Assembly (NCBI GenBank): GCA_024653215.1
Contig: JANLFU010000002.1
Location: forward strand, 266,447-330,446
Direction: 5' to 3'
Origin: Candidatus Saccharicenans sp.
GTDB taxonomy: Bacteria > Acidobacteriota > Aminicenantia > Aminicenantales > Saccharicenantaceae
Length of the DNA: 64,000 bases
Position numbers and translations under genes: made by a program. The notes under the pieces are model-generated. The model saw only the letters and a list, made by a program, of their open reading frames with translations, had not been told where the DNA came from and made no database searches. Each line of letters begins with the position of its first letter. The stretch's first letter is position 1. Shown here piece after piece: positions 4,308-27,436 of the stretch.

Positions 4308-5588
4308 ATGATGGAAAACAACACCAACCAGGAAAGGCTGAAAGTGGTCAGTCCCACGGTCCGGGAACTGGACCTGGAAATTTCTCCGGAGGCGGTTAAA
4401 AAAGAATACGAAAAGGTGCTCAGGGATTACGTGGCCCGGGTCAAATTACCCGGTTTCAGGAAGGGCTATGCCCCCCGGGACATGGTGCAGAGGATGTTTG
4501 AAGCTGAAATAAAAGAAGCGGTCCTGGACAACCTCATTCCCGATAACCTGAGACAGGAGCTGGAAAACCTGAAGGTAGTTCCGGTCAACGTGCCCACGGT
4601 CAAATCGGTGGATTTCAGCCTGGATGGGGGAGTCCGGTACCAGGTGTCCTTTGAGGTTTGGCCCGAGTTTGAGCTGCCGGCCGATTACCTGGAGAAAAAG
4701 GTAGAGAAGGAGAAGGTCCAGCTGGATGAGGCCGAAGTCGAAGCTGTGCTTAACCGGCTCCGGGAAAACGCGGCCGAGTACCTGCCGGTGTCTGAACGCG
4801 GAGTGCAGGCTGGAGATTACGTGGTCATCGAGATCCAGGGCAAGGATGCGGCCACCAAGAAGTTCATGCCGGTGGAAAAGGTGGTGGTGCTGGCCGGCCA
4901 TGCCGATAACGAACCGCAACTGAACGAGGTCCTGCCGGGACTCAAGCCGGGGGACGAGAAGAATTTCACGGTCAAGTATCCTCCCGACTACCGCCAGAAG
5001 AAGTTTGCCGGGAAAGAAATTGAGTACAGGCTGAAAGTTCTGGAGATAAAAGAGAAAAAGCTGCCCGAGCTCAACGATGAGTTTGCCAAGCTGGTAGATG
5101 ACGTGGAAAACCTGGAAGCCCTGAAGGAGAAAATTCGCCAGGACCTGGTCAAGCACCGGGAGGAGGAAGCCCGGGATAAAGCCATAAACCAGTACCTGGA
5201 AAAACTGGCCACAGAGATAAACCTGGTCATCCCCGAGAGCATGGTCAAGGAAGAGGCCCAGGCCATAATCGGGCGCCAGTTCCGAGAGGAGGAACTGAAA
5301 AAGATTCCCAATGAACTCTGGCCCGGCCTGCTGGAACAGGCCCGGAAACAGGCAGAGGCCAACCTTAAGAATCATATTCTGCTGCGCAAGATTGCCGCCC
5401 GGGAAGGACTGCAGGTCACGGCCGAGGAGTTCGAGCAGGAACTTAAGAAGGTATCCGAATCAAGAAATATTCCCCTGGACCAGCTCCAAGCGGCCCTGGC
5501 CCGGGACGGTCGCGACGAGGACTGGAAGATCAACCTGCTCCTGAGAAAAACGGTTGACTTTTTGTCCGGGAGGGTTATAATAGAGTAA
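4308..5588 (+). CDS. tig: Trigger factor
   Basis: 426 aa; N-terminal [15 protein letters not shown] ribosome-binding signature, PPIase and C-terminal domains; next to clpP/clpX/lon. Confidence 0.96.
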
Positions 5589-5598
5589 AGCTTCCCCT

Positions 5599-6195
5599 AT
5601 GGCCATAATTCCTTTCGTCATTGAATCCGAGGGGCGCACCGAGCGCGGTTACGATATCTATTCCAGGTTGCTCAAAGACAGGATAATCTTCCTCGGCACT
5701 GAAATAACGGATGAGGTGGCCAACCTGGTAATTGCCCAGTTGTTATACCTCGAGGCCGAAGCCAGCGATAAGGATATTTCCTTGTATATAAATTCACCGG
5801 GAGGCAGCATAACTGCCGGCCTGGCCATTTATGATACCATGCAGTTCATAACTTCACCCGTGACCACCATCTGCCTGGGTCAGGCGGCCAGCATGGCCGC
5901 TGTACTGCTGGCGGCCGGGACGGCCGGCAAGAGATTTGCCCTGCCCAATTCCCGGATCGTCCTTCACCAGCCGTTTGGTGAGTTCCAGGGCCAGGCCAGC
6001 GACCTGGCCATCCAGGCCAAAGAGATTCTGAGGATGCGCGAGAACCTGAACCAGATCCTGGCCAGGCATACCGGGCAGCCCCTGGACAAGATACAGGCTG
6101 AGGTCGAACGGGATTTCATCATGACTCCTGTTCAGGCCAAGGACTACGGTCTGATTGACCAGATCATCAGTTCCCGTAAGGAAACTCTCGCCTGA
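5599..6195 (+). CDS. clpP: ATP-dependent Clp protease proteolytic subunit
   Basis: 198 aa; [47 protein letters not shown] (catalytic Ser), [12 protein letters not shown] (catalytic His). Confidence 0.98.
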
Positions 6196-6236
6196 GCGGC
6201 AAAGGCTCCCCGCCGGGAGCAGGTAAGGCATAGAGC

Positions 6237-7484
6237 ATGACAACCAACGAACAGAATGCAGGCACGGTCAAGTGCAGTTTCTGTCACCGGACCCAGACCC
6301 AGGTCCGGAGACTGATTGCCGGTCCGCAGAAAGTCTATATCTGTGATAACTGCGTGGAGATCGCCCATTCCATCCTGGTTTCCGACCGCCAGCAGGAACT
6401 GGAAATCAAGCAGAAAAAAGAACCCTTCCTGACCCCGGTTCAGATCAAAAAAGCCCTGGACGAATACATCGTCGGCCAGGAAGAAGCCAAGAAAAAAATA
6501 TCGGTGGCCGTCTATAACCATTATAAACGCATCAACCAGCCCAGGGGCCAGAGCGAGGTGGAAATAACCAAGAGCAACCTGCTGTTCATCGGCCCGACGG
6601 GAACCGGCAAGACCCTGATGGCCCAGACCCTGGCCAGGTTGCTGTCGGTACCGTTTGCCATAGCCGATGCCACCACCCTGACCGAGGCCGGCTACGTGGG
6701 CGAGGACGTGGAGAACATCATCCTGAAGCTTTTCCAGGCGGCCAAGGGCAACATCGAAAAGACCCAGAAGGGAATCATCTACATCGATGAAATAGACAAG
6801 ATCAGCCGCAAGAGCGATAGCCCGTCAATTACCCGGGATGTTTCCGGGGAAGGGGTTCAGCAGGCCCTGCTCAAGATCATCGAAGGCACGGTGGCCAACG
6901 TGCTTCCCCAGGGCGGCCGCAAGCACCCTTACCAGGAGTTCATTCCCGTCGATACTTCTGATATACTGTTTATCTGTGGCGGGGCCTTTAACGGCCTGGA
7001 CAAGATAATAGCCCAGCGCCTGGGCAAGTCCACGGTCGGTTTCAAGTCTGAGATCAAGAAGCTGGTGGACAGCCAGGACATTTACCGCCACCTGATGCCG
7101 GAGGACCTGATCAAATACGGCCTGATTCCCGAGCTGGTGGGCCGGGTGCCGGTGGTGGCCGTTTTCCATGACCTGGACCGGAACCACCTGATCGAAATCC
7201 TGACCGGGCCCAAGAACGCCATCATCAAGCAGTACCAGAAGCTGTTTGAGATGGAGGGAGTCGAACTGGAATTTACCGCCGAGGCCCTTCAGGCCATAGC
7301 CGAAAAGTCGATAGAAAAGAAGCTGGGAGCCCGGGGGCTGAGGGCCATAATCGAGGACCTGATGCTCGACCTGATGTTTTACCTGCCGTCACAGAAAAAG
7401 GAAACCAAGATCGTCATCACCCGGGAGATGGTGGAGGAGCAAAGGCTCAGCTACGAAAAATATAAACAGGTAATGGGAGCGTAA
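6237..7484 (+). CDS. clpX: ATP-dependent Clp protease ATP-binding subunit ClpX
   Basis: 415 aa; N-terminal zinc finger CSFCHRTQ...CDNC, Walker A GPTGTGKT, Walker [11 protein letters not shown]. Confidence 0.98.
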
Positions 7485-7485
7485 C

Positions 7486-9900
7486 ATGACCGAGTCCCAG
7501 GAAAACTCTGAACTCATAAAAAATATACCGCTCATCCCGCTCAGGGACCTGGTGGTTTTCCCGGCCACGCTGGTGCCCTTTGTCGTCGGCCGGCCCTCAT
7601 CGATCAAGGCCCTGGAAAAGGCCTACGAGAAAGACAAGCTGATTTTCCTGGCTGCCCAGATGGATGCCGGAATCGATAACCCCTTGCCGCGTGATATCTA
7701 CACCATGGGGGTGACGGCCAGGATTATCAGGACGGCCAAGACCGATGAACGGAACATGAAGGTCATAGTCGAGGGGCTCAACCGGGCCCGGATCGTTGAG
7801 TTTCTCAGCACCTACCCCTATTACCAGATACTGGCCAAGGTGGTCAAGGAAATCGAGGACAATTCGCCGGAGACCCAGGAACTGCTCAAGAAGGTCCTGG
7901 CCCTGTTCGAGGAATACTTAAAGATCAACCAGAATGCCAACCTGGATTCCATCATCCCGGCCCTCAGGGAAAACAGCACCGACCGGATTGCCGACATCAT
8001 CTCTTCCCATCTGTACCTGCCGCTGGAAGAAAAGCAGAACCTGCTGGAGACGCTGAATACCCGGGAGAGGCTTAACCGCCTGAGGTTCCTGCTCCAGGAA
8101 TCCCTGGTCAACTTTATCGGCCGGGAACCGGGGGCCGGTTCCTCCCGAAGAAGGGGAGGGCAGAAGGAAGGCGGCCAGCGGACCTTCATTCCCGGTGCCC
8201 AGTTCAAGAAAGAAGAACAGCCCAACGAGATAGAGGAGCTGAAGAGAAAGGTGGCCGAAGCCCAGATGCCTCCCGATGCCCACGAGAAGGCCATGAAGGA
8301 AATCGAGCGCCTGGAAACCATGCCTCCAATGTCGGCCGAGGCTACTGTCAGCCGGAACTACCTGGACTGGCTTATTTCTCTGCCCTGGAACAAGAAATCC
8401 AGGGAAAAGAGGGACCTGAAGGAAGCTGAAAGAATCCTGAACGAAGACCATTACGGATTGGAAAAGGTCAAGGAAAGGATCCTGGAATACCTGGCCATCC
8501 GCCAGCTGGTCAAGAATCCCAAGGGTGTCATCCTGGCCTTCATCGGGCCGCCTGGAGTCGGCAAAACCTCGCTGGGCAAGTCCATTGCCCGGGCCACGGG
8601 CCGGAAATTTGTCCGGCTGTCGCTGGGCGGCGTTCGGGATGAAGCCGAAATCAGGGGCCATCGCCGGACCTACATCGGGGCATATCCCGGACGGATTATC
8701 CAGATGATCAAGCGGGCTGGCACCAAGAACCCGGTTTTCCTGCTGGACGAAGTCGACAAGATGAGCATGGATTACCGGGGCGACCCGGCCGCAGCCCTGA
8801 TGGAAGTCCTGGACCCGGAACAGAACAAGGAATTTCTCGACCACTACATAGATACCGATTTTGACCTGTCCCAGGTGATGTTTATCGTAACCGCCAATTC
8901 CATAGACCCGATTCCGCGGGCCCTGCTGGACCGGATGGAGGTCATCAGGCTGCCCGGCTATACCGAGGATGAAAAGGTCCAGATTGCCCGGCAGTTCCTG
9001 ATTCCCAAGCAGCTCAAGGCCCATGGCCTGACCTCCAAGAACCTGGAATTTACCGAGCAGTCCATCCTGAAAATAATAAGGGAGTATACCAGGGAGGCCG
9101 GGGTCAGAAACCTGGAGCGGGAAATCACCTCCATCTGCCGCAAGATGGTCAAGAAAGTGGTGACCAAGGGCAAGGAATACCGCGAAAAGCTGACAGCCAA
9201 GGCGGTGGAAAACTACCTGGGCATCCCCAAGTACCGCCGGCTGGAAATTGACCAGCAGAATGAGATCGGTGTTTCCCTGGGGATGGCCTGGACCGAATTT
9301 GGCGGCGAGCTGCTGACCTTTGAAGCCACCAAGATTCACGGCAAGGGCAACCTGACCCTGACCGGCCACCTGGGCGAAATCATGCAGGAGTCGGCCCAGG
9401 CCGCCTACAGTTATGTCCGACACAAGCTCTACGAGCTTAACATGGGCAAGGAACTGGAAAAGAACTTTGACATACACATCCACGTGCCGGAAGGAGCCAC
9501 GCCCAAGGAAGGTCCCTCGGCTGGTATCACCATCGCCACGGCCATCATCTCCCTGCTGACGGGTATCCCGGTCAGCAAGAAAGTGGCCATGAGCGGAGAA
9601 ATCACCCTGAGGGGCAAGGTTCTGCCGGTGGGCGGAATTAAAGAAAAACTCCTGGCCGCCTTCCGCGAAGGCATAACCGAGGTCATCCTGCCGGTTGATA
9701 ACCGTCCCGACCTCAAGGACCTGCCCAAGAAATTGAAACAGAACCTGAAAGTCCATCTGGTGGAAAACATGGACCAGGTTCTGAAAATAGCCCTGACCGA
9801 GGAGCTGGTGCCCAAGGCCGGACCGAGCGAGCCCGAGGCCAAGGAAAAGCAACCGGCGGCCGGGACTGAAGCCACCAAGGAACCCCAGATGACCAATTGA
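7486..9900 (+). CDS. lon: ATP-dependent protease Lon
   Basis: 804 aa; IPLIPLRDLVVFP N-domain, GPPGVGKTSLGKSIARA, PEGATPKEGPSAGITIATA (catalytic Ser), KEKLLAAFREGI (catalytic Lys). Confidence 0.98.
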   Translation: MTESQENSELIKNIPLIPLRDLVVFPATLVPFVVGRPSSIKALEKAYEKDKLIFLAAQMDAGIDNPLPRDIYTMGVTARIIRTAKTDERNMKVIVEGLNRARIVEFLSTYPYYQILAKVVKEIEDNSPETQELLKKVLALFEEYLKINQNANLDSIIPALRENSTDRIADIISSHLYLPLEEKQNLLETLNTRERLNRLRFLLQESLVNFIGREPGAGSSRRRGGQKEGGQRTFIPGAQFKKEEQPNEIEELKRKVAEAQMPPDAHEKAMKEIERLETMPPMSAEATVSRNYLDWLISLPWNKKSREKRDLKEAERILNEDHYGLEKVKERILEYLAIRQLVKNPKGVILAFIGPPGVGKTSLGKSIARATGRKFVRLSLGGVRDEAEIRGHRRTYIGAYPGRIIQMIKRAGTKNPVFLLDEVDKMSMDYRGDPAAALMEVLDPEQNKEFLDHYIDTDFDLSQVMFIVTANSIDPIPRALLDRMEVIRLPGYTEDEKVQIARQFLIPKQLKAHGLTSKNLEFTEQSILKIIREYTREAGVRNLEREITSICRKMVKKVVTKGKEYREKLTAKAVENYLGIPKYRRLEIDQQNEIGVSLGMAWTEFGGELLTFEATKIHGKGNLTLTGHLGEIMQESAQAAYSYVRHKLYELNMGKELEKNFDIHIHVPEGATPKEGPSAGITIATAIISLLTGIPVSKKVAMSGEITLRGKVLPVGGIKEKLLAAFREGITEVILPVDNRPDLKDLPKKLKQNLKVHLVENMDQVLKIALTEELVPKAGPSEPEAKEKQPAAGTEATKEPQMTN

Positions 9901-9939
9901 GGAAAAATTAACTGAAATCTGTTTTCGATTTTTCCTCAA
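9897..9939 (+). repeat. 12-bp inverted repeat at the lon stop codon (hairpin)
   Basis: TTGAGGAAAAAT (9897-9908) ... ATTTTTCCTCAA (9928-9939), perfect complements. Confidence 0.7.
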
Positions 9940-9943
9940 AATA

Positions 9944-9963
9944 GATTCAAGATGAATTGAATC
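9944..9963 (+). repeat. 7-bp inverted repeat in the rho leader
   Basis: GATTCAA-GATGAA-TTGAATC. Confidence 0.55.
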
Positions 9964-9990
9964 AAAAAATTTATATGTGAGGTAGGAGCG

Positions 9991-11271
9991 ATGAAAGAAT
10001 ACAGTCTGATCGACCTGGAAGAAAAGGAACTATCCGGTCTCAAGAAGATTGCCAACTCCCTCGGGCTGGAAGAAGAGGACATTGAAAATTCCAGCCGGCA
10101 CCACCTGATCTTCAAGATCCTGGAGGCCCAGGCCAAGAAGCAGGGCCTGCTGTTTTCCGAAGGTGTCCTGGAATGCCTGGAAGACGGCTTTGGCTTCCTG
10201 CGGGCCCCGGAGTTCAGCTATCTGCCCAGTCCCGACGACATCTACGTCTCGCCCTCCCAGATCCGCAAGTTCCAGCTCCGGACCGGAGATACCATTTCTG
10301 GCGTGGTCAGACCTCCCAAAAATGGAGAAAAATACTTTGCCCTGATCAAGATAGAAGCCATAAATTTCCTGCATCCCGACGTGGTCCTGGAAGCCAGGCG
10401 AAATGTCCAGTTCGAACAGCTGACTCCCGTCTATCCCTTCGAACTCATCAAGCTCCAGGACGGAAACCCGAAGAATATGAACGCCAGGGTCATGGAGCTG
10501 CTGACCCCGATAGGGAAGGGGCAGAGGGGCCTGATCGTTTCCCCGCCCCGGGCCGGTAAGACCACGCTGCTCAAGACCATTGCCAAGTCCATCGAAAAGA
10601 ACCATCCCGAGATATTCCTGATAGTACTGCTGGTGGCAGAGAGGCCGGAAGAAGTTACCGATTTCAAAAGAAGCGTTAACGGCGAGGTGGTGGCCTCGAC
10701 TTTCGACGAGCCGCCAACCCGCAACGTCCAGGTGGCCAACATCGTCCTGGAAAAGGCCAAGAGGCTGGTCGAATTAAAGCGCGACGTGGTCATCCTGCTC
10801 GATTCCATCACCAGGCTGGCCAGGGCCCATAACGCCATCGTCCCGCCCTCGGGCAAGGTGCTTTCGGGTGGTATCGATGCCAATGCCCTGAACAAGCCCA
10901 AGAAATTCTTCGGCTCGGCCCGTAAGATCGAGGAAGGCGGCAGCCTGACCATAGTGGCCACGGCCCTGGTCGATACGGGAAGCCGCATGGATGATGTCAT
11001 TTTTGAAGAATTCAAGGGCACCGGCAACATGGAAATCAACCTTGACCGTCGCCTGGTTGACAAGAGAATCTTCCCGGCCATTGATATCAGCCGTTCCGGA
11101 ACCAGAAAGGAAGAGCTGCTGATCGGAGACAAGGACCTGAACCGGGTCTGGATACTGCGCAAGATTCTCAGCCAGCTTAACGAAGTGGAAGCCATGGAAC
11201 TGCTGCTGGAAAAACTCTCCAAGACCAAGACCAACAGCGACTTCCTGGATGCCATGAGCAAGGGCCTGTAG
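9991..11271 (+). CDS. rho: Transcription termination factor Rho
   Basis: 426 aa; cold-shock RNA-binding domain [14 protein letters not shown], Walker [38 protein letters not shown] upstream. Confidence 0.98.
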
Positions 11272-12190
11272 CGGGCGTCTGGCAAGGGCTATTTTTTCCA
11301 CAAACATAAATTTTACTCGAGAGAATCACCCTGTCTTCTTATTTATGGTGACGGACTTCGTTTTCTGGCCTGTGCCGGATAATGATTCTGGCCCCTTGTC
11401 CCGCGCTGCTTAAAAAATAAGCTTTCATAAAAAAAATACCAGCACAGGTCTTCTTAATAGAGTCTCTCCAGATTTAAATCACAGAAAATAAATAAATTAG
11501 AAGAAAGTGTCGCGTAACTAAAAGATTATAAATAAGATAGATGAAATCCACCTGGCCTATCGAAAGCCATTAAGAATGTACGCCAGTAACACGGTTCCGA
11601 CTTCGAATCAGGCTCCAAATTTCAAGTTTTTAAAAAAAGCACTTAATTATGATGGGATTTGATATGGCATAATCCGCAGAATTCGTCAGCAGGTGAGTCG
11701 GCCTGGGATATTATTAAGAACATAATCTGGCTAATTCTTGGAATAAGGAGTCGGTCAGGTTCGTCAGTGGGGTTATAAGCTATTCAAGCTCAGATTTCCA
11801 GCCGAGGACTTATTAAAAAAGCTATTAAAGCCAGGGGTTAACGGGATATCCTGAAATTGGGTTCTATATAAAAGTTAAATATCTCGGAGTCCAGGGAAAC
11901 CAGTTGACTTGATAAAACAAAGGTTTCGGGACCGCGCGGCTATATATCAACTTAAAGGTCATCGAGGAAAATAATCCTTTAGGCCCAGGCCAATACAAAA
12001 TTCAGACTTTTAATAACTGATTAAATTAAATCGAAGTACGTTTATAAGGCAAGCAAATCGCTATCATATGTTTAATTGGGAATGAGGAACTTTTCCACAG
12101 TTGACCAAAAGCTGGGTATAAGAGAAATTCACAATCTTAACAGGCAGGCAAATAATTGATTATAAAAGAGATAGAAAATAAAGCTATATT

Positions 12191-12218
12191 GTGTCGCATA
12201 AGTTATATTATGTAAACT
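12191..12218 (+). other. dif site (XerC/XerD chromosome dimer resolution site)
   Basis: 28-mer GTGTCGCATAA-GTTATA-TTATGTAAACT: 11-bp XerC arm, 6-bp centre, 11-bp XerD arm. XerC arm core CGCATAA as in E. coli dif; XerD arm TTATGTAAACT matches the recalled B. subtilis dif arm. Lies between convergent genes. Confidence 0.85.
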
Positions 12219-12253
12219 AATATATCGAGAACGGATAGGGACTATAGCGCGGC

Positions 12254-13156
12254 TTATTTATCCTGGTTATCGTTAAGCTTGAGTTGCCCGGGATTGGCTT
12301 TGCCCCCTGATTCTTCCTTAAGTTGCCTGATAATCCCCTCAAGGATATTGATCAATTCCTGCCTGGTTACGACCTGTTTCTTGAATTCTATTCTGAGCCT
12401 GAAGCTCTTATTGTCTTTAGGTACATAATTGAATACGAAAAATTTTGGTTTTTCTTTATCTTTTTCTTCTTTTTCCTTAAAAAGCTTGGTCAGGTCGCGG
12501 GTATCAGTCCTGGTGAGGCGGTTTTGAATGATTCGCTCTACAACCTGGGACATTAGTGTTTCTGGTTCAACCTTGGCAATCTCGATTATGGTACTGCGGC
12601 TGGTTATGCCGGCCTTTTTTAGTTTTTCGCGGAGGTCTACGGGTATGCGGGAAACAGAAATAATCTCGGTTATGGTTGACCTGGCTTTGCCGATCTTATC
12701 GGCAACTTCCTGGTGGCTGTAGCCATAAAGATTCATCAGGGCCTTAAGGCCGTCAGCCTCTTCAAATATATCAAGATCCTTTCGCTGCAGGTTCTCAATG
12801 AGGCTGATTTCCATGGCCTCCTGATCGTCAACAGTCATCTCAATACACGGAATTTCTTTCAACCCCAGGTTCTTTGAGGCCACAAACCGCCTTTCTCCGG
12901 CGATAATCTCAAATTTTTCCCCTTTGGGGCGGACGATGATTGGCTCCAGGACGCCCTTGGCCCTGATTGAATCCATTAATTCCTGGATATCTCCCAACTC
13001 GCTACGCGGCTGCCTGGGATTTGGTTCGATTCTATCCAGCGGAATCATTCGGATCCTGGGCGCAGAGGTCTTGGAGGCAATCAGCTCAACGAAATGAGGG
13101 TCATGCCTCATGATTAAATTGTCAGGAAGGCCTGATTTTTTAGTTTTTGTTTGCAC
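12254..13156 (-). CDS. parB: ParB/Spo0J-family chromosome partitioning protein
   Basis: 300 aa; PLDRIEPNPRQPR, IAGERRFVASK (CTP-binding box), SLIENLQRKDLDIFEEA, HTH region YGYSHQEVADKIGKARSTI. Confidence 0.93.
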   Translation of the reverse strand: MQTKTKKSGLPDNLIMRHDPHFVELIASKTSAPRIRMIPLDRIEPNPRQPRSELGDIQELMDSIRAKGVLEPIIVRPKGEKFEIIAGERRFVASKNLGLKEIPCIEMTVDDQEAMEISLIENLQRKDLDIFEEADGLKALMNLYGYSHQEVADKIGKARSTITEIISVSRIPVDLREKLKKAGITSRSTIIEIAKVEPETLMSQVVERIIQNRLTRTDTRDLTKLFKEKEEKDKEKPKFFVFNYVPKDNKSFRLRIEFKKQVVTRQELINILEGIIRQLKEESGGKANPGQLKLNDNQDK

Positions 13157-13907
13157 GTTCGATCAACTCCTCGGCCACAGATTTATATTGAATAGCCCCT
13201 ATGGAATCAGGGGCAAAGGTAAATATACTTTCTTTATAAGCCGGGCTTTCCTCCAGCTTGACACTCTTGGAAATATAGGTCTTAAAGACCTTATCTCCAA
13301 ATACTTCGATTATTCTATCAACCACATCCTTGGAAATATTTGTTCTGCGGTCATGCAGTGTGATAATAACCCCGATGATTTCCAGCTCCGGATTGGCAAT
13401 CTTTTTAACCTTATCTATGGTTTCGAGCAGGTCATCGGTGCCTTCAAGACATAAATAGGACGATTGGATTGGTATAAGGATATGGCTGGCGGCTACCAGA
13501 GCATTTAGTGTAATGAGGCCGAGCGTGGGTGGCGTATCTATAAAAATATAATCATAATGATCACGAACAGTATTGAGAGCATCTCTGAGCCGATAATGGC
13601 CATCAAATTCACCTATCAAAGCAGGCTCAAGCTTGGCCATGGATATCCTGCTTATGGCCACGTCCAGCCCCGGAATTGTGGACTTCACGATTATATCGGA
13701 AATCTTTGTGTTTTTGTCCATGAGAACATCGAACAGCGACCTGGGAATCTCATGAGGATTATTGACTATCGAAATCGTGCTGTGAGCCTGTGGGTCCATA
13801 TCCACCAGGAGAACACGATGTCCCATAAGGGCTAGGGCGGCAGAAACATTAACGCAGGTAGTGGTCTTCCCCACTCCGCCTTTTTGATTGGTTACAGCGA
13901 TTATCAA
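13140..13907 (-). CDS. parA: ParA/Soj-family partition ATPase
   Basis: IIAVTNQKGGVGKTTTCVNVSAAL deviant Walker A, VLLVDMDPQAHST, YIFIDTPPTLG. ORF call starts at ATG 13946, but GGAGG (plus-strand CCTCC 13914-13918) sits 6 nt from TTG 13905-13907, which gives MIIAVTNQKGG. Confidence 0.93.
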   Translation of the reverse strand: MIIAVTNQKGGVGKTTTCVNVSAALALMGHRVLLVDMDPQAHSTISIVNNPHEIPRSLFDVLMDKNTKISDIIVKSTIPGLDVAISRISMAKLEPALIGEFDGHYRLRDALNTVRDHYDYIFIDTPPTLGLITLNALVAASHILIPIQSSYLCLEGTDDLLETIDKVKKIANPELEIIGVIITLHDRRTNISKDVVDRIIEVFGDKVFKTYISKSVKLEESPAYKESIFTFAPDSIGAIQYKSVAEELIERANKN

Positions 13908-13937
13908 GCTAATCCTCCGGTTAATAGCTTTAATAAA

Positions 13938-13966
13938 AATATACAAAAAAAGAATTGTAAATACAA
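13938..13966 (-). promoter_or_regulatory. Candidate parA promoter (TTGTAT-17-TATATT on minus strand)
   Basis: Plus-strand ATACAA 13961-13966 (-35) and AATATA 13938-13943 (-10), 17-nt spacer. Confidence 0.5.
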
Positions 13967-13992
13967 GATAAATTTTTTAAATTTTTATAACC

Positions 13993-14008
13993 TGTCGGCA
14001 GGCCGACA
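13993..14008. promoter_or_regulatory. 16-bp palindrome upstream of parA, candidate ParB/ParA operator or parS-like site
   Basis: TGTCGGC-AG-GCCGACA, perfect 7-bp arms, GC-rich inside an AT-rich intergenic region. Confidence 0.45.
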
Positions 14009-14055
14009 TATCTATAAGTAATTGATAATAAAGAATATATAAAATATTCGAATTT

Positions 14056-17434: not shown

Positions 17435-19489
17435 ATGTCCAGGTTAAAAATCCCGTTGCTTCTGGTAATGACTGGTTTCTTGATCTTAATGGCCACTCCC
17501 CTGCTGGCCGGCCAGGTGGAAACCAAGTTTCACTCGCCGGCCGAGGTGGTGGCTGGTCTTAAAAGCCTGGCCGGCAAATACCCTGAAATCTGCCGATTAA
17601 GCACCATCGGTAAATCATTCGGCGGTCAGGATATCCAGGTCCTGGAAATTGCCGCCCGGAATAATAAACCCGACCCCAAGGCCAGGCCGGCGGTGCTGGT
17701 GGTGGCCAATTCAGAAGGGGTTCACCTCCCGGGAACCGAGGCCGCCCTGCGGCTGGCAGAAGACCTTCTCACCGCCTACGGCCAGGATAAGGCCTGGACG
17801 GATTTTCTTAACCGGAACACCGTCTATGTGATTCCCGTCTTAAACCCGGAAGCAGCCGGGGCTTACTTCTCAAGACCCCTCCAGGAAAGGACTTTTAACA
17901 GCCGTCCAGTAGATGAGGACAACGACGGGCTGGTCGACGAGGACGGTCCGGAGGACCTCAACGGCGATGGCCTGATCACCATGATGCGGGTCAAATCTCC
18001 GGAGGGACGCTGGATAATCGACCCTAAGGAGCCGAGGTTAATGAGGCTGGCTGACCCGAAAAAAGGGGAAAAGGGTGAATACCTGGTCTACGCCGAAGGC
18101 CTGGACAACGACGGCGATGGCCAGATAAACGAGGACGGCCCCGGCGGGGTCGAGCTCAACCGCAATTTTCCCCACGACTTTGAGTACTTCCAGAAACGGG
18201 CCGGTCTTTACCCGGTGTCGGAACCTGAAACCGAAGCCCTGTTAAAGTTCATGTTTGACCACAATAACATAGCCATGGTGATCAATTTTTCGACCGAGAA
18301 TAACCTGCTGAACATGCAGCAGACCGGTCAGGCCAGGGTTGGGGCTGACCGGGTCCGGGTTCCCCGCCAGTTCGCCGGCTTTCTCGGGCTGGATCCGGAT
18401 ACTGAATATACGCTGAAGGAAATAGTGGATGTCCTGAAGAGCTCCGGGTTCGGTGGCGGTATGGAAATAGATGAAAGCCTGGTGGCCACCTTCCTGGGGC
18501 TGGGCCCGGCCATGAACCTTGACCGTTCGGACCAGGCCATATATGAAGAGCTCCTGAAAGACTACAAGGCCGGGCTGAAGGAAATCGGCCTTGATTACCT
18601 GGAAAAGAGAGCCAGGGGTGTGGGCAAGGGCTCCTTCCCGGCTTTTTGCTATTACCAGTACGGCGTGCCTGTCTTTTCCTTTGACCTGTGGCAGGTACCG
18701 GAGCCAAAGAGGGAAGAAAAAAAGGATGAACTGACCCCTGACCGTCTCAAGTCCATGTCGTCAGAAGAATTTCTGGCTCTGGGAGAAGAAAAGATTGCTG
18801 CCTTCCTGAAAGAACGTGGTGCTCCGCCCAACTTCAATGCGGGCATGCTGATGAAGATGGTTCAGTCGGGCCAGGTCACCCCGGCCAGGATGGCCGAGAT
18901 GATGGAAAAAATGCCCAGGGCGGCCGGAGCCGGAGTTGCCGGGGCCGAGGAAAATCCCGAAGCCTACCTCCTCGCCTATTCTGATAACGTCATAAAAGGT
19001 GCGGGCTTCATTAGCTGGAAGCCTTTTAAGCACCCCGAACTGGGCCAGGTGGAAATCGGCGGCTTTGTTCCTTTCCTGAAATACACGCCGCCTCCTGACC
19101 AGCTTCAGGCTACCATCAAGTATCATGTTCAGTACAGCCGGAAACTCATGATGAAACTGCCAAGCGTGTCGATCAAGGAAACGAAAATTGAAAAACTTGG
19201 CACGGACCTCTACCGGTTGACCGTTTACCTGCAGAACGAAGGACTTCTGCCCACCTCCTTTGCCCAGGGCCGGCGGGCCCTGACCTCCTACCCCATCAGG
19301 GTCAGCCTCAAGCTCGAAGGCAAGCAGAAGCTCTTTGCCGGCCGCCCGGTGGAACAGGTGCCGTTCCTGCAGGCCGGCGAAGTCCGAAAGCTGGAATGGA
19401 CGGTCCAGGCCAAGAAAGGCTCAAGCCTCGGTTTCAGAGTCTGGAGCAACCGGATATCGCCCGTCGAAACTATGGTTAAAGTGGATTAG
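17435..19489 (+). CDS. M14 zinc-carboxypeptidase-like secreted protein with altered metal ligands (likely pseudoenzyme)
   Basis: 684 aa, signal peptide; homologous to the downstream M14 protein, but HxxE is replaced by EGVH and SFHNYGG by NFSTENN; Ca-loop DEDNDGLVDEDGPEDLNGDG. Confidence 0.8.
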   Translation: MSRLKIPLLLVMTGFLILMATPLLAGQVETKFHSPAEVVAGLKSLAGKYPEICRLSTIGKSFGGQDIQVLEIAARNNKPDPKARPAVLVVANSEGVHLPGTEAALRLAEDLLTAYGQDKAWTDFLNRNTVYVIPVLNPEAAGAYFSRPLQERTFNSRPVDEDNDGLVDEDGPEDLNGDGLITMMRVKSPEGRWIIDPKEPRLMRLADPKKGEKGEYLVYAEGLDNDGDGQINEDGPGGVELNRNFPHDFEYFQKRAGLYPVSEPETEALLKFMFDHNNIAMVINFSTENNLLNMQQTGQARVGADRVRVPRQFAGFLGLDPDTEYTLKEIVDVLKSSGFGGGMEIDESLVATFLGLGPAMNLDRSDQAIYEELLKDYKAGLKEIGLDYLEKRARGVGKGSFPAFCYYQYGVPVFSFDLWQVPEPKREEKKDELTPDRLKSMSSEEFLALGEEKIAAFLKERGAPPNFNAGMLMKMVQSGQVTPARMAEMMEKMPRAAGAGVAGAEENPEAYLLAYSDNVIKGAGFISWKPFKHPELGQVEIGGFVPFLKYTPPPDQLQATIKYHVQYSRKLMMKLPSVSIKETKIEKLGTDLYRLTVYLQNEGLLPTSFAQGRRALTSYPIRVSLKLEGKQKLFAGRPVEQVPFLQAGEVRKLEWTVQAKKGSSLGFRVWSNRISPVETMVKVD

Positions 19490-19499
19490 GAGAGTAACC

Positions 19500-21284
19500 A
19501 TGAACCGAACCCTAAGAATTGTTTTACTTATAGCTTTAATGGTCACGCTCTCGGGTCTTAGCCCGGTCGATTCGGCCCAGGGTGCCAGGACCAGGCCCGA
19601 GGTCAAACTGAGCTTTGACCATTTTTATGACCAGGCCGAGCTAACCGCTGCCCTGAAAGAATTGCAGAGAGCTTACCCCGAACTGATGAAGCTGGAATCA
19701 ATCGGCAAGTCCTACCAGAGCCGGGATATCTGGGCAGTCATCATCAATAATCCGGCCACCGGCCCGGCCGAGCGGAAGCCTGGTTTTTATATTGACGGTA
19801 ACATTCACGGCAACGAAATCCAGGGGGCAGAAGTGGCCCTGTACACCATCTATTATCTCCTGAAGAATTCCGGGAAGCTGGAGTTCGTGGACCGGTTGCT
19901 GCAGGACCGGGCCTTTTACATCGTTCCCACCATGAACCCTGACAGCCGCGATTATTTCCTCCACCAGGCCAGCGATTCCAACTCCCCGCGCTCGGGGCTT
20001 GTCCCATATGACGATGACCGCGACGGCCTGCTGGACGAAGATGGCCCGGATGACCTGGACGGCGATGGCTCGATAACCTACATGCGCAAGCGGGACCCGA
20101 AGGGAAATTACAAAACCAGCCCGGACAATCCCCTGGTCATGGTCCCCTGCCGGCCCGGGGAAAAGGGCGAATTCATCATGCTGGGCTCGGAAGGCCTGGA
20201 CAACGACGGTGATGGCCAGGTCAATGAAGACGGGCCCGGCGGCTACGACATGAACCGGAACTTCGGCTACAACTGGCAGCCCAATTATGTGCAGCGCGGA
20301 GCCGGCCCGTATCCTTTCTGCTGGCCGGAGACCAGGGCGGTCAGGGATTTTCTCCTGGCCCATCCCAATATCATGGGAGCCCAGTCTTTTCATAATTACG
20401 GCGGGATGATTCTCCGCGGGCCCGGGGCCAAGAACCTGGGCGAGACTCTTCCCCAGGACCGCCAGGTCTACGATTACATCGGAAAGCAGGGCGAAAAGAT
20501 TCTTCCCGGCTACCGCTACATAGTCATCTACAAGGACATGTACACCGTCTACGGCGGGACGATTGATTTCACCTATAACCTGCTCGGCATCTTCACCTTT
20601 TCCAACGAGCTGGATTTTGACCAGTATGCGGGAACCCAGCCGGCGTCGCAGAGAGGCGGAGGCGAAGAGGAAGATGAGGATGTCAGGGGCCGGATGTTCC
20701 GGGCCGGAGCCAGCCTGGAAGAAATCATTTACCAGCAGCTGGTGCTGATGGGCGAACAGCTGGTGGAGTGGAAGCCCTATAAGCATCCGCTCTACGGCGA
20801 GATTGAAATTGGCGGGGTCAAGAAGATGGGGCGCCGGGTGCCGGCCCTGTTCAGGCTGGCCGAGACCTGTCACCGCAACGCGGCTTTCTGCCTGTACCAT
20901 GCTGACCAGCTGCCGAGACTGAAAGTGGAATCGGTCAACCTCAAGAAGCTGGAAAACGGGCAGTACCAGGTGGACGTCAGGATAGCCAACGACCGGGTAA
21001 CTCCCTCGATTTCCAGCCAGGCGGTAATGAGAAAGCTCCACCGGCCGGATATGCTGAAGGTGGAAGGTAAGGCCAGGCTGGTCTCGGCTGGAATTCTGAC
21101 CGACCGCTTCCGTGAGCTGGCCGAACCGGTCAAGGTCCGGAAAAATTATCTCCAGGTGGAAAATGGCATCCCGGGCTTCGGCTACGTGGACTTCAGGCTG
21201 CTCCTGGAAGGCTCGGGAGAAATTAATTTAATTTATGATTCCCTCAAGGGCGGTTACCTGGAACAAAAAGTCAACCTGAAATAA
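19500..21284 (+). CDS. M14 family zinc carboxypeptidase, secreted
   Basis: ATG 19500 (MNRTLRIVLLIALMVTLSGLSPVDSA signal); NIHGNEIQGAEVAL (HxxE), AQSFHNYGG (third Zn His), FTFSNELDF (catalytic Glu). ORF track start 19335 is upstream of the signal peptide and overlaps the previous gene. Confidence 0.88.
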   Translation: MNRTLRIVLLIALMVTLSGLSPVDSAQGARTRPEVKLSFDHFYDQAELTAALKELQRAYPELMKLESIGKSYQSRDIWAVIINNPATGPAERKPGFYIDGNIHGNEIQGAEVALYTIYYLLKNSGKLEFVDRLLQDRAFYIVPTMNPDSRDYFLHQASDSNSPRSGLVPYDDDRDGLLDEDGPDDLDGDGSITYMRKRDPKGNYKTSPDNPLVMVPCRPGEKGEFIMLGSEGLDNDGDGQVNEDGPGGYDMNRNFGYNWQPNYVQRGAGPYPFCWPETRAVRDFLLAHPNIMGAQSFHNYGGMILRGPGAKNLGETLPQDRQVYDYIGKQGEKILPGYRYIVIYKDMYTVYGGTIDFTYNLLGIFTFSNELDFDQYAGTQPASQRGGGEEEDEDVRGRMFRAGASLEEIIYQQLVLMGEQLVEWKPYKHPLYGEIEIGGVKKMGRRVPALFRLAETCHRNAAFCLYHADQLPRLKVESVNLKKLENGQYQVDVRIANDRVTPSISSQAVMRKLHRPDMLKVEGKARLVSAGILTDRFRELAEPVKVRKNYLQVENGIPGFGYVDFRLLLEGSGEINLIYDSLKGGYLEQKVNLK

Positions 21285-21606: not shown

Positions 21607-22941
21607 TCATTCGCCGCCGATCTGGAGAGATTTAATCCTCAGGGTGGGAGCGGTCCGGCTGCGGTTCAAATCCAGGTCGTTGCCCAGCATATCTATTCCG
21701 TTCAGAATTTCCTCGGCCGTGCCGGCGATGGTAATGCCCTTTACCGGGAAGGCGATCTTACCGTTTTCTATCCACAGGCCAGCGGCCCCGCCACTGAAGT
21801 TGCCGTTGACCGGGTTTATGCCGTAGCCGGTTACTTCCTTGACCAGCACTCCCCTTTCGGTTGCGCCGATTATTTCCTCCGGTTTCATCTTTCCGGCCGA
21901 AATGTAAAAATTATGCGGGCCGATTCCAGGCAGGCTGTCAAACCCGCCCCGGCTGGCGTTTCCGGTGCTCTTGACCCCGGCTCTTCTGGCGGCATAGGTG
22001 TTATATAGAAATCCTCTGAGGATCCCGTTCTCGACCACCGGCCGCTTCTGGGTGGGCACGCCCTCCCCGTCAAATGGGGCGCTGGCCAGCCCCTTTTCCA
22101 GGGTGCCGTCGTCAATCATGGTGATGAGCTCGGAAGCGATTTTCTGGCCGAGCTTTTTCCCCAGGAAGCTGGCTCCCTGAAGTACCCTCTCGCCGTTTAT
22201 GGCCTGGATGATTCCACCCAGGATGGCGTAGGCCACGTCCGGGTCAAGGATGACCGCCGCCCGCTGGGTTTTTACCGGCCTGGGGTCGAGCATTTCCAGG
22301 GCCCTGTCCGCGGCCATCTTGGCCACTTCAGCCGCCGGTTTTAGGTCGGCGAAGAAACGACGCTGGCAGGACTCGTAACCGCTGGATTTCTGGTCGCCCT
22401 TTTCGGCAATTACCCCAACCCCGAAGCCACAGCCACTGGACTTATAGCTTTTAACCAGGCCGAGGGAGTTAGCCAGAACGATTTCGCTCTCGCTTTCCCC
22501 GTACCTGGCCCCCTCACTCCTGGTAATGCCTTTGACCTTCAGGGCCAGGCTTTCCACCTCCCGGGCCAGGGCAATTTTCCTGTCCATGGCCACCTGGCTC
22601 AGCCCTGGGTCATACAACCCCCTGACCTCGGTCACACCCGGGTCGTCGGGCAGGACATTATTTTCATCAGCGGTCAGTATCCTGGCAAAATCCAGGGCCC
22701 GCCTGACCGTTTCTTCCAGGCTCTCCGGCCGGAAGTCGTTGACGTAGGCAAAGCCCAGCTTGTGGCCGCTGATGACCCGGAGGCCCAGGCCGTAGCTGCT
22801 GGCTTCCTGGATGCTCTCAATCTTTCCGTTCCTGACCTCAAGGCTGAGTTCCCTTCCGCTGGCCAGGTAGGCTTCGGCCTGGTCGGCTCCCTTCTGTTTG
22901 CAGATTTTTATAACCTGTTCGGCAATTGCTCTGTAATCCAT
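21607..22941 (-). CDS. TldD/PmbA family protein (TldE/PmbA-like subunit)
   Basis: 444 aa; MDYRAIAEQVIKICKQKGADQAEAYLASGRELSLEVRNGKIESIQEAS, typical PmbA/TldE; no HExxxH. Confidence 0.87.
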   Translation of the reverse strand: MDYRAIAEQVIKICKQKGADQAEAYLASGRELSLEVRNGKIESIQEASSYGLGLRVISGHKLGFAYVNDFRPESLEETVRRALDFARILTADENNVLPDDPGVTEVRGLYDPGLSQVAMDRKIALAREVESLALKVKGITRSEGARYGESESEIVLANSLGLVKSYKSSGCGFGVGVIAEKGDQKSSGYESCQRRFFADLKPAAEVAKMAADRALEMLDPRPVKTQRAAVILDPDVAYAILGGIIQAINGERVLQGASFLGKKLGQKIASELITMIDDGTLEKGLASAPFDGEGVPTQKRPVVENGILRGFLYNTYAARRAGVKSTGNASRGGFDSLPGIGPHNFYISAGKMKPEEIIGATERGVLVKEVTGYGINPVNGNFSGGAAGLWIENGKIAFPVKGITIAGTAEEILNGIDMLGNDLDLNRSRTAPTLRIKSLQIGGE

Positions 22942-22952
22942 TTTATCCTCCC

Positions 22953-24479
22953 TTAACCTCTCTGCCTGGTTCCGCCGACAGTGATGCCCCTGATCCTGAC
23001 CGTCGGCTGCCCGGCCGTAACCTCGGCCGCCTGACCCTTGCCGCAGATACCGGGACCGAAATCAAGGTCATCGCCCACTGCGTCTATCCTGGTGATGATA
23101 TCCAGGCAGCTACCGATGAGGGTGGCTCCCCTGACCGGCACGGTCTTCTTGCCGTCTTCTATGAGGTAGGCTTCCCGGCAGGTGAAGTTAAAAACACCGG
23201 TGGTCGGGTTGACGCTGCCACCGCTCAGGCTCTGAACATAAAGGCCCGATTTGGTCGAAGCCACGATATCCTCTGGCTTATCCTTTCCCTTCTCGATGTA
23301 GGTATTGGTCATTCGGGGTATGGGGTAATAACGGAAGCTCTCCCGGCGGCCATTTCCGGTCCTCTCCATTTTCAGCTGCTTGGCGGAGAGGACATCAGTC
23401 ATGTACTTGACCAGGACACCATTTTCTATCAGGACGTTCTTTTTCATCTGGGTGCCCTCGTCGTCAAAGTCGGTTGTCCCGCGGAAGTTGGGCAGGCTGC
23501 CATCGTCGACCATGGTGAAGATATCGGCGGCCACCTTCTGTCCGAGCTTGCCGACAAAGGCCCCGGTCTCCCTGGCTATGTTATCGGCTTCGAGCGGGTG
23601 CCCGACCGCTTCGTGGACCAGGACCCCGCCCCAGCCGTTCTGGATGACCACGTCCATCTTGCCGGCGGGGGCTTCCCGGGCTTCCAGCATGGCCACCGAT
23701 TCCCGGGCCGCTTCCCGGGCTGCTTTTTCCGGCGGCAACTCTTCGAACATCTCCAGGCCGGAGTGCCGGCTGAGCCTTTCCCGGCCCATGTGAGAGGTGT
23801 TATTGCCGGCGGCCAGGGTCTGGACGATGAAGAAAATAAGCGGCAGGCTGCTTCTGAGCAACACCCCTTCGGAAGTGGCTATTATTCGGTCCCTGATTTC
23901 GTCGTAGTAATCTATGCTGGCCATCTTGATCCGCTGGTCGTAGCCCAGGGCTGCCTCGTGGGCCCTTTTCATGATTTCCATTCTTTTGGCGTCAGCCACT
24001 TCCTGCAGCGGAATTTTAACCCTGATGAAGGATGGCCTCTTTTGCTCTTTGAGGGCCACGGGCTGGGTCTTCTTCCCCGAGGTGGCAATAAAGGAAGCAA
24101 CCTCGGCTGCTCTCAGGATTTTTTCTTCGGTCAGCTCGTCGGTGTAAGCGTAGCCGGTCTTATCTCCGTCGATCACCCTGACCCCGGCTCCCCGGATCAG
24201 GCCGAAGACCGCGCTCTTGAACCTGCCTTCCTCAAGGATGAGGCTTCTGGAGATGCGATTTTCCACGTAAACATCGGCAAAATCGCCACCCCGTTTCAGG
24301 GCCACGGCCAGGGCTTTCTTCAGAATCTCGTCCGGCACCTGGAGTTTCTGTCCTTCCCCGGCCAGCAGCGACCTGACCAGGGCCGGGGTGGCGGCCAGGG
24401 CCAGTCCACCCTGAAGACCAAGGCTAAGAAACTTCCGCCTGTTGATGGGCTTGAGCCCGGGAAAAACATCTTTCATCAC
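22953..24479 (-). CDS. tldD: TldD family metalloprotease with Tat-type signal peptide
   Basis: 508 aa; GVLVHEAVGHPLEAD (HExxxH); N-terminus INRRKFLSLGLQGGLALAATPAL resembles a twin-arginine signal. Confidence 0.88.
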   Translation of the reverse strand: MMKDVFPGLKPINRRKFLSLGLQGGLALAATPALVRSLLAGEGQKLQVPDEILKKALAVALKRGGDFADVYVENRISRSLILEEGRFKSAVFGLIRGAGVRVIDGDKTGYAYTDELTEEKILRAAEVASFIATSGKKTQPVALKEQKRPSFIRVKIPLQEVADAKRMEIMKRAHEAALGYDQRIKMASIDYYDEIRDRIIATSEGVLLRSSLPLIFFIVQTLAAGNNTSHMGRERLSRHSGLEMFEELPPEKAAREAARESVAMLEAREAPAGKMDVVIQNGWGGVLVHEAVGHPLEADNIARETGAFVGKLGQKVAADIFTMVDDGSLPNFRGTTDFDDEGTQMKKNVLIENGVLVKYMTDVLSAKQLKMERTGNGRRESFRYYPIPRMTNTYIEKGKDKPEDIVASTKSGLYVQSLSGGSVNPTTGVFNFTCREAYLIEDGKKTVPVRGATLIGSCLDIITRIDAVGDDLDFGPGICGKGQAAEVTAGQPTVRIRGITVGGTRQRG

Positions 24480-24741: not shown

Positions 24742-26547
24742 ATGAACAAGATAAAATTAAAATTTTTATCCGGCGGCAAAATCATAAAGGCTGAAGCCAG
24801 TCCGGGCCAGACTCTTTCTTGGGTCCTGTTTCGGGCTGGCCTGCCCATCAAGCTCTACTGCCAGGGGCGGGGAATCTGCGGCCGCTGCCTGGTTGAAATT
24901 AAAAGCGGACCTCTGCCCGAAGAAACTGAAGCCGAAAGAAAATTGAAGCTCGAGCGACGATTGCCACCCACTTTTCGCCTGGCCTGCCAGCTCCGCCTCT
25001 ACCAGCCCCTGATTGTTAGAATTCCGGATGAACTTCTCCTGCTGCCGGAAATAAAGAATCTGGCCGGGAAATTTCCGGGAAGCGGTCGACCTGCACTGCG
25101 GGATTTTAACCCGCTGGTTAAAAAATATGTTTTGCGGCTCGCAAGAGAAGATTTATCCCGAGAAGAACGGTTGGCGTCGGTAATAAAGTCAACCCTGGGC
25201 CTGAAGCAGCTGGCTTTTGGCCCGACCGCAGGGCATAAACAAAAAAACGTGGGCCCCTCATGGCGCCAGTCCACGGCTGTAATCTATGATGACCGGTTGC
25301 TGCTGGCCCTGGAAGCCGGCCGCACCGATGATAGAATTCTTGGCCTGGCCCTGGACCTTGGAACCACCACCGTCTCGGCCAGGCTTCTTGACCTGGTGAA
25401 GGGAAAAACCCTGGCCTCGGCCAGCGCGGCCAACCTGCAGGCAGCCTTCGGGGCTGACCTTATTTCCAGGATTGCCTTTGCCGTCGAAAAACCGGGCAAC
25501 CTGAAGAAGCTCCGGCGGGCCGCCCTTAAATCAATTGCGCAACTGACGGAAGTTCTGGCCCGGGAAGCCGGGGTCAAAACGAAGTGGATTTATGCCGTCT
25601 GCCTGGCCGGGAATGCAGTCATGAACCACATCTTCCTTAACCAGCCGGTTGACTCCCTGGGGCGGGCGCCCTTCAGGCCAGCCTTCTTGTCCCATGAGCC
25701 GGTTCCCGGCTTAGAAGTCGGGCTCAGTCTTAATCCGCGGGCCATGGTCTTTACCAGTCCGAACCTTGGAGGCTTTGTCGGCGGCGATATTTCATCCGGC
25801 CTGCTTTATACCGGTCTGCCCAGTAAAGCCGGAAACTATCTCTACGTGGACCTCGGCACCAACGGGGAAATAGCCCTCAAAAAGGGTAAGAAGATTTTGG
25901 TTGCTTCCACCGCGGCCGGCCCGGCCTTTGAAGGCAGCGGAATTTCCTGCGGGCAACCGGCCCTGCCCGGGGCCATTGAATACGTGAAATGGTCCGGGGA
26001 CAGGTTTAAATACCGGACGATAGGTCGGAAAAAACCGTCCGGACTTTGCGGCTCAGGCCTGCTCAGTGTCCTGGCCGAATCGCTGAGGGCCGGCTGGTTA
26101 CTGCCTTCGGGAAGGATTACCGCAGGTCGCTCGGAAATACCGGTGGCTCCGGGTCTTACCCTGAGCCAGCTCGATATAAGAAAGTTGCAGCTAGCCCTGG
26201 CTGCCCTCAAGAGCGGAATGCGACTCCTGCTGAGCACCGCCGGGCTGGACTGGACCGAACTGGACGGGCTTTACCTGGCGGGAGTATTTGGCAGCTCGGT
26301 TGACCCGGGTCAGTGTATTGCGGTTGGACTTCTTCCTCCCCTGCCCCGCCGGAAAATTATTTTTGCCGGCAATGCTTCCCTGGCCGGGGCTGAGATGCTG
26401 TTGCTCAGCGGCCAAGCCAGGAAATCCGCGGCCAGGCTTCCGCTTAAGGTTCAACATGTTTCCCTGGCTGAACTGGAAAATTTTCAGGGCGAATTCTTAA
26501 AGGCCTTGAGCCTTGGCCGCCGCTACTGGAGGAAAAATGATGTTTGA
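24742..26547 (+). CDS. ASKHA-domain, 2Fe-2S ferredoxin-like protein: reductive activator of corrinoid proteins (RACo/DUF4445-like)
   Basis: 601 aa; LYCQGRGICGRCLVEI (CX5CX2C) with distal RLACQ; LGLALDLGTTTVSARLLDL and YLYVDLGTNGEIAL ASKHA phosphate motifs; followed by methyltransferase genes. Confidence 0.88.
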   Translation: MNKIKLKFLSGGKIIKAEASPGQTLSWVLFRAGLPIKLYCQGRGICGRCLVEIKSGPLPEETEAERKLKLERRLPPTFRLACQLRLYQPLIVRIPDELLLLPEIKNLAGKFPGSGRPALRDFNPLVKKYVLRLAREDLSREERLASVIKSTLGLKQLAFGPTAGHKQKNVGPSWRQSTAVIYDDRLLLALEAGRTDDRILGLALDLGTTTVSARLLDLVKGKTLASASAANLQAAFGADLISRIAFAVEKPGNLKKLRRAALKSIAQLTEVLAREAGVKTKWIYAVCLAGNAVMNHIFLNQPVDSLGRAPFRPAFLSHEPVPGLEVGLSLNPRAMVFTSPNLGGFVGGDISSGLLYTGLPSKAGNYLYVDLGTNGEIALKKGKKILVASTAAGPAFEGSGISCGQPALPGAIEYVKWSGDRFKYRTIGRKKPSGLCGSGLLSVLAESLRAGWLLPSGRITAGRSEIPVAPGLTLSQLDIRKLQLALAALKSGMRLLLSTAGLDWTELDGLYLAGVFGSSVDPGQCIAVGLLPPLPRRKIIFAGNASLAGAEMLLLSGQARKSAARLPLKVQHVSLAELENFQGEFLKALSLGRRYWRKNDV

Positions 26548-27436
26548 CATAAAGAGGTTAACGGAAAAACAGGTTATTCTCCTCGACGGGGCCATGGGCA
26601 CCGAGCTATTTCGGGCCGGGCTGCCTCCCGGCCATTGTCCCGAATCCTGGAACGAAGAAAGGCCGGAAGAGGTGGCCGGGATTCACCGCTCTTATTATGA
26701 AGCCGGCTCCCTGGCCGTCCTGACCAATTCCTTCGGCGGGAATGCCCTCAAGCTGGCCGGTTACGGGCTGGAGAGCAGGACCTTTGAGCTTAATTTTAAG
26801 GCGGCTCAACTGGCCCGGAGCGTCTGTCCCGAAGGCCGCTATGTCGGGGGAAGCATCGGGCCAACGGGGAAGTTCTTAAAGCCGGTTGGAGACCTGACCG
26901 AAGACCAATTACTTGAAGCTTTCAGGCCCCAGGTCGAGGGTCTGGCTGCCGGCGGCGTCGATTTCCTCTTAATAGAAACTCAATACGACCTCAAAGAGGC
27001 CCTTCTGGCTTTAAGGGCAGCCAGAGAAGCCTGTTCTCTTCCGGTCTTGGTAACCATGACCTTCAACCTTACCAGGCGCGGGTATTACACCATCATGGGA
27101 GTGTCGCCCGAGACTTTTATCAGAACCATGGAAGAAAACACCGTGGAAGCCTTTGGGGCCAATTGCACCCTGTCACCGGCCGACATGATCGGTCTGATAA
27201 TAATCATGCGCTCTCTGAGCGACGGTCCACTGATCGCCCAGGCCAATGCCGGCCAGCCCCGGGTCGGTCCCGATGGTTCCACTCTTTACGAGCTGGGCCC
27301 GGATGAATATGCCGGTTTCATTCCGGAGTTGATTGAAGCCGGGGCCCGGGTCATCGGCGGTTGCTGTGGAACCTCTCCGGAACACATAAAAAAAATTGCT
27401 GAAAAAATAAGTGCCTTTTTTGATAAAATCAACTGA
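26537..27436 (+). CDS. Homocysteine S-methyltransferase family protein
   Basis: VILLDGAMGTELFRAG, FGANCTLSPADM, VIGGCCGTSPEHI zinc Cys motifs; GGAGG just upstream of ATG 26537. Confidence 0.92.
   Translation: MMFDIKRLTEKQVILLDGAMGTELFRAGLPPGHCPESWNEERPEEVAGIHRSYYEAGSLAVLTNSFGGNALKLAGYGLESRTFELNFKAAQLARSVCPEGRYVGGSIGPTGKFLKPVGDLTEDQLLEAFRPQVEGLAAGGVDFLLIETQYDLKEALLALRAAREACSLPVLVTMTFNLTRRGYYTIMGVSPETFIRTMEENTVEAFGANCTLSPADMIGLIIIMRSLSDGPLIAQANAGQPRVGPDGSTLYELGPDEYAGFIPELIEAGARVIGGCCGTSPEHIKKIAEKISAFFDKIN

Follow-up and report, generated by a model that had tools for sequence, protein, structure and literature searches.

A second parABS unit beside dif in Acidobacteriota chromosomes and its proposed role at the replication terminus

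A parAB operon lies next to dif in the window analysed here, a stretch of 64,000 bp (G000:C22:266447-330446) from a 2.6-Mb, 36-contig assembly of Ca. Saccharicenans (Aminicenantia, Acidobacteriota). The locus raises the question of what a partition operon does at dif rather than at oriC. The first-pass annotation of this DNA offered two options, a terminus-linked partition system or an IMEX-like element integrated through XerCD. The anatomy of the locus, its predicted DNA site and its distribution in the phylum were analysed.

Organization of the locus and its position on the chromosome

The features of the locus are as follows.

9991-11271, plus strand: rho (Pfam match), a neighbour outside the conserved unit
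11272-12088, no strand: AT-rich non-coding spacer (GC 0.38) between rho and the dif-flanking block
12089-12190, plus strand: conserved block flanking dif, with a pair of DnaA-box-like [AT]TCCACA-like motifs fixed at -101 and -67, Aminicenantales only
12191-12218, plus strand: dif, GTGTCGCATAA-GTTATA-TTATGTAAACT (XerC arm, centre, XerD arm)
12254-13156, minus strand: parB2, terminus ParB, Pfam ParB_N and HTH_ParB, residue signature H162, R173, T177-E178, R/K201
about 13140-13907, minus strand: parA2, Soj/ParA-type deviant Walker ATPase, Pfam AAA_31, TTG start
13993-14008, no strand: parS2 (predicted), TGTCGGCAGGCCGACA, a palindrome of 16 bp some 85 bp upstream of parA2

The Pfam matches of ParB2 are strong (ParB_N, E=4e-27; HTH_ParB, E=1e-14), as is that of ParA2 to AAA_31 (E=3e-56), and the two genes overlap by 17 bp, in an operon. 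The dif core, TCGCATAA-GTTATA-TTATGTAAA, was found at 12194-12216 with 0 mismatches, within a full site of 28 bp, and the exact dif occurs once in the whole genome. The parB2 stop lies 35 bp from the 28-bp site, in agreement with the distance of about 36 bp given by the first-pass annotation. Its description of the gap between rho and parB, about 980 bp with no open reading frame of 60 aa or more past the rho-proximal edge, also held: the gap is 982 bp and no such frame was found in it. The sequence of the spacer is not conserved between species, and an Rfam search of the region between rho and parB2 returned no family and nothing convincing. The gap has a GC content of 0.38, and parA2 and parB2 have 0.44-0.46, compared with 0.55-0.56 for the flanks. 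The AT-rich island noted earlier is thus real, but the same low GC is seen at the equivalent position in related species and AT-richness is therefore no sign of recent import.

No integrase or transfer genes were found between rho and the next gene, and only parA2B2 lies between dif and the next gene. A second dif that might bound an element was also looked for; the sole other match in the window, at 14655, has two mismatches, is located inside a gene and is at chance level. No canonical parS is present in the window.

On the other side of dif, a proteostasis run of tig-clpP-clpX-lon followed by rho occupies 4308-11271, with all genes oriented toward dif (rho was assigned by Pfam, the other four by eye). 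Further along the window are neighbouring genes for TldD-like and PmbA/TldE-like metalloproteases (21607-24479), preceded by two tandem zinc-carboxypeptidase-like ORFs (17435-21284; by eye only). A methyl-transfer cluster at 24742-29609 comprises an AcsV-like corrinoid reactivase, a homocysteine/betaine methyltransferase, an MtgC/MtbC-like corrinoid protein and a methyltransferase of the non-pyrrolysine MttB family, most of them scoring under their specific NCBIfam cut-offs.

The block of about 100 bp that ends at dif (12089-12190; loci L004-L033) carries an [AT]TCCACA box at exactly -101 in 21 loci and at exactly -67 in 19, where 0.06 are expected per 200 bp. At two loci (L086 and L089) one box is displaced by roughly a helical turn (10 bp). 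The boxes may be DnaA boxes or may serve the Xer complex as an accessory site. A reading of this block as DnaA boxes or a secondary origin was considered and not adopted: the boxes resemble TTTTCCACA/ATATCCACA and keep fixed positions but do not form a cluster, they are missing outside Aminicenantales, and the skew indicates a terminus.

The chromosomal position was examined from strand composition. At dif, the 50-kb mean GC skew drops from +0.048 to +0.003 in the 330-kb contig that holds the window, and from +0.058 to -0.018 in a 390-kb stretch of a relative (G010). The detrended cumulative skew reaches its maximum 6.6 kb from dif in the former and 94 bp from it in the latter. The polarity of the KOPS motif GGGNAGGG also switches at dif, with plus/minus strand counts changing from 36/17 to 4/15 in the own contig and from 35/9 to 8/21 in G010, and an FtsK with a gamma domain is encoded. 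Seven closed or near-closed genomes were compared, and in six of them ParB2 and dnaA are 43-50% of the circle apart (G098, 47.6%; G215, 50.2%; G161, 43%; G133, 49%; the main replicon of G159, 44%; in G347 ParB2 is at 3.13 of 6.47 Mb, with dnaA at 0). The exception is the single-contig genome G356, in which ParB2 is just 14% from ParB1 and a full-score DnaA was not found. Thus, parA2B2 does not have the position near oriC that characterizes canonical chromosomal ParABS; skew and KOPS place it at the terminus, antipodal to dnaA in most of these relatives, as the earlier annotation had held in assigning parAB to dif rather than oriC.

A coexisting origin system and the predicted centromere parS2

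The earlier annotation had advised a search for a second parAB. A canonical origin-type parABS was found adjoining mnmG in the same genome, with parS of sequence TGTTCCACGTGGAACA, so that the operon at dif is not the sole chromosomal copy. The canonical parS, TGTTTCACGTGAAACA, is present at this origin system and was not found in the 330-kb contig that carries the window. A third, more distant ParB_N protein is encoded by a 340-aa open frame elsewhere in the assembly (G000:C35:18495). Among solved structures the best relative of ParB2 is Spo0J (1vz0, E=6e-40), and plasmid ParBs reach about 37% identity at most, over no more than 67% of the query. ParB2 is a ParB/Noc-family paralogue. An AlphaFold model of ParB2, built with ten close sequences only, had a mean pLDDT of 46 and was set aside.

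Comparison of palindromes in 75 diverse loci gave a single dominant motif, TGTCGGC-NN-GCCGACA. This site, parS2 (TGTCGGCNNGCCGACA, TGTCGGCnnGCCGACA), shares the 7-2-7 layout of parS and is predicted to be the cognate site of ParB2. Among 103 loci, 86 have an exact copy and 94 a copy with at most one mismatch, while 200 permuted palindromes of equal composition were found in a mean of 0.01 loci and a maximum of 1. Its placement varies: it is often upstream of parA2, in 29 loci it is within parB2, and elsewhere it lies between parB2 and dif. Whole genomes carry one to few copies. Multiple copies, where they occur, are grouped close to ParB2, as in G133 with four exact copies in the 53 kb around it. 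The copy in the window is the only one in its genome at up to one mismatch. Palindrome enrichment around dif in the own contig alone gave no signal, as expected for a genome with a single parS2, and it was the phylum-wide comparison that revealed the motif. The site was detected in 172 of 229 genomes that have ParB2 (the exact site is missing in the other 57) and in two of 167 that do not (G055 and G408), with a Fisher odds ratio of about 249 and p=1.6e-58, a p value that ignores shared ancestry. A reversed control pattern gave only a handful of matches.

The recognition residues were compared with the known specificity code. In ParB and Noc, R173 reads G at position 1 of the site and R201 reads C at position 6, and Q162, N178 and others are common to both families (Jalal et al. 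2020, PMC7383237). All 97 ParB2 orthologues compared have R173 and E178, and 96 have H162; position 201 is occupied by R in 51 and by K in 46. The origin ParBs of these genomes have Q162, R173, N178 and A/G201. The parS2 site carries G1 and C6, matching the prediction from R173 and R201, and has CGG at positions 3-5 in place of the TTC of canonical parS. H162 and E178 are the obvious candidates for reading these new bases. The fit of the residue code to the site ties ParB2 to parS2 independently of their genomic proximity. The CTPase motifs GERR and EN-QR are conserved in ParB2, as are KGGVGKTT, D-DPQ and RT in ParA2, where the catalytic motifs are invariant. The locus thus has the sequence features of a ParABS: a ParA-type ATPase, a ParB with CTPase N-domain and HTH, and a predicted palindromic site near the genes. 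Noc is defined by Q173/K179/K184/R201 and the NBS site; in ParB2, R173 is invariant, position 179 is not K and the score lies under the TIGR04285 cut-off.

With origin ParABS (Soj/Spo0J) the locus shares both proteins, the gene order, the deviant Walker ParA, the CTPase ParB with HTH and a 16-bp 7-2-7 site near the genes. It differs in lying at the terminus beside dif, in coexisting with a canonical origin system, in its predicted site, and in having H162/E178/R or K201 instead of Q162/N178/G201. Noc-NBS, the nucleoid occlusion system of Firmicutes, is likewise built on a ParB paralogue with diverged DNA specificity, R at 201 and C at site position 6. However, Noc retains Q162 and N178 and swaps R173 to Q, whereas ParB2 retains R173, has a ParA and has its sites at the terminus. 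Noc sites avoid the terminus.

Distribution, inheritance and linkage to dif

The sample consisted of 396 genomes of one phylum, Acidobacteriota, mostly MAGs. A ParB2 orthologue (E<=1e-38) was found in 229 of them; it is missing in about 40% of the sample and is therefore dispensable for the phylum as a whole. Among 40 relatives, a sample of 7 families and 15 genera, 35 have a strong ParB2 orthologue (55-98% identical) together with an origin-like ParB, and a perfect dif core lies beside ParB2 in all 30 orthologous loci fetched. In the broader set, parA2 precedes parB2 in 102 of 103 loci, and a dif-like site with up to three mismatches lies within 800 bp downstream of parB2 in 78; as a control, the best match within parA2 or parB2 never had fewer than four mismatches. 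Outside Aminicenantales most dif sites have the variant form TCCGATAA or TCTGATAA-N6-TTATGTNAA.

By family tallies made by hand, dif lies within 3.2 kb of parB2 in 35 of 47 sampled families, a wider scan having added sites within that distance in G294, G303, G110, G402 and G280. Linkage is loose or not settled in the other 12. Among these exceptions, the distance is 13 kb in G044, 139 kb in G284 and 39 kb in family f41; in f41 a parS2 with one mismatch is found some 2 kb from the candidate dif. By tblastn, rho is beside parB2 only in the class Aminicenantia. Since rho and other neighbours vary, conservation concerns parA2-parB2-dif and does not extend to a longer syntenic block; of the rho-dif-parAB synteny that the first-pass annotation had proposed to compare, only this part is general. 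ParB2 proteins form a monophyletic clade apart from the origin ParBs of the phylum (support 100/98). These sequence comparisons indicate that parA2B2 is vertically inherited across the phylum and is not a mobile element.

Whole families lack ParB2 (f14, f18, f33, f37, f24, f64 and others), and in the sample genomes without ParB2 are also without parS2, G055 and G408 excepted, which suggests joint loss or absence of the two. In one genome (G267) a parS2 (C2:28880) and a perfect dif (C2:30965) are 2 kb apart and the detected ParB2 is on C77, as if the genome had a second parA2B2-dif unit or a contaminant contig. Another (G364; C88, C96, C103) has five perfect dif-like cores and no ParB2 match, a possible expansion of a dif-module or integrative element.

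The AT-rich island with parAB adjoining dif is what a recent IMEX-like insertion through XerCD would look like. The orthologues spread over 15 genera with dif beside them, an AT-richness shared with relatives, the single dif and the lack of integrase or transfer genes all argue against it, and we regard such an event as highly improbable. The option of a terminus-linked partition system is, on the other hand, strongly supported by the second canonical parABS, the skew and KOPS switch, the position opposite dnaA and the phylum-wide unit. An origin of parA2B2 by replicon fusion before the phylum diversified is possible. A stronger version of that history is improbable. In it, XerCD joined a replicon to the chromosome of the phylum ancestor at dif, and the locus is what remains of that replicon after domestication, surviving only through local synteny or autoregulation of its operon, with no present terminus function. 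It would agree with the fact that plasmids and secondary chromosomes carry their own parABS and that XerCD-dif matters in replicon fusions (PMC12153318), and parS2, often upstream of parA2, could serve autoregulation. But parS2 is also found within parB2 or between parB2 and dif, parA2 and parB2 are intact across dozens of families, the window has no mobile genes or second dif, and dif stays while the neighbours change, for which simple synteny inertia is insufficient.

A present function of another kind is also conceivable. As a MatP-like terminus organiser, ParB2-parS2 might condense the terminus or anchor it to the division site, or mark division timing as an inverse Noc, with ParA2 as a regulator rather than a segregation motor. 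To our knowledge, Noc and MatP operate without a dedicated ParA. The one or few parS2 near dif, the paralogy of ParB2 to ParB/Noc and the absence of a MatP (PF06303) match in the nine Acidobacteriota genomes tested would suit such an organiser. Unlike in Noc and MatP, however, parA2 is kept beside parB2 almost without exception and with its ATPase motifs intact, and one site per genome is a small number for an organiser of a macrodomain. We consider this reading unlikely, though less so than the remnant. The MatP-matS system of the Ter macrodomain (enterobacteria, vibrios) resembles the present locus in having a terminus-specific DNA-binding protein (for ParB2 the binding is predicted) linked to dif and FtsK/XerCD processing. 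It differs in that MatP belongs to a family unrelated to ParB_N/HTH_ParB, has no ParA partner and has 23 matS across 800 kb (PMC3330122).

Proposed function at the terminus

Operon, parS2, dif linkage, terminus position and vertical inheritance are all features of the sequences; the function at the terminus is what we infer from them. The locus probably encodes a complete ParABS, the second of its chromosome and orthogonal to the first, that is dedicated to the replication terminus and would position or separate sister termini around FtsK-XerCD-dif. ParB2 dimers would bind parS2 and then close as CTP-dependent clamps, which would slide from the site over nearby DNA, dif included. Nucleoid-bound ParA2-ATP would hold or move the ParB2 complexes, so that sister termini are positioned and finally parted across the septum, in coordination with the XerCD recombination that FtsK drives at dif. 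Through the altered recognition residues ParB1 and ParB2 would each stay on their own sites, and a terminus centromere of this kind would thus leave ParB1 and SMC loading at the origin. Sites of parS far from oriC impair chromosome segregation in Pseudomonas and Bacillus (PMC5098823); orthogonal specificity would avoid this harm from ParB/SMC recruited away from oriC. Positioning or anchoring without active partition also fits this anatomy.

The wider proposal, towards which we lean only slightly, is that Acidobacteriota chromosomes are naturally two-centromere. The origin centromere would act first, and an orthogonal terminus centromere beside dif, read by a third ParB DNA-specificity class, would actively separate the sister termini as the cell cycle ends. 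The dicentric fused chromosomes of Agrobacterium also have two partition systems per chromosome with dif between them, and require XerCD (PMC12153318). In that case the fusion is recent and both centromeres serve active origins, whereas here the predicted second centromere lies at the terminus and is phylum-wide.

The machine itself, ParABS, is already known; its place and its predicted DNA specificity are new. No description of a terminus- or dif-linked chromosomal parABS was found in the open-access literature searched, and priority is uncertain. Kono et al., who surveyed dif sites, predicted the site in three Acidobacteria and, in the available part of the survey, make no mention of parAB (PMC3025954).

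Chromosomal ParABS has been described as an origin system, and a phylum-wide parABS at dif would be a way round that limit through orthogonal specificity. The terminus gains a candidate active segregation machine where MatP was not found, and ParA-driven segregation of the terminus becomes testable. The locus may also provide a marker for the terminus in fragmented Acidobacteriota genomes. A third predicted ParB-site pair, besides ParB-parS and Noc-NBS, would be of use in the study of specificity evolution and as a DNA-labelling tool.
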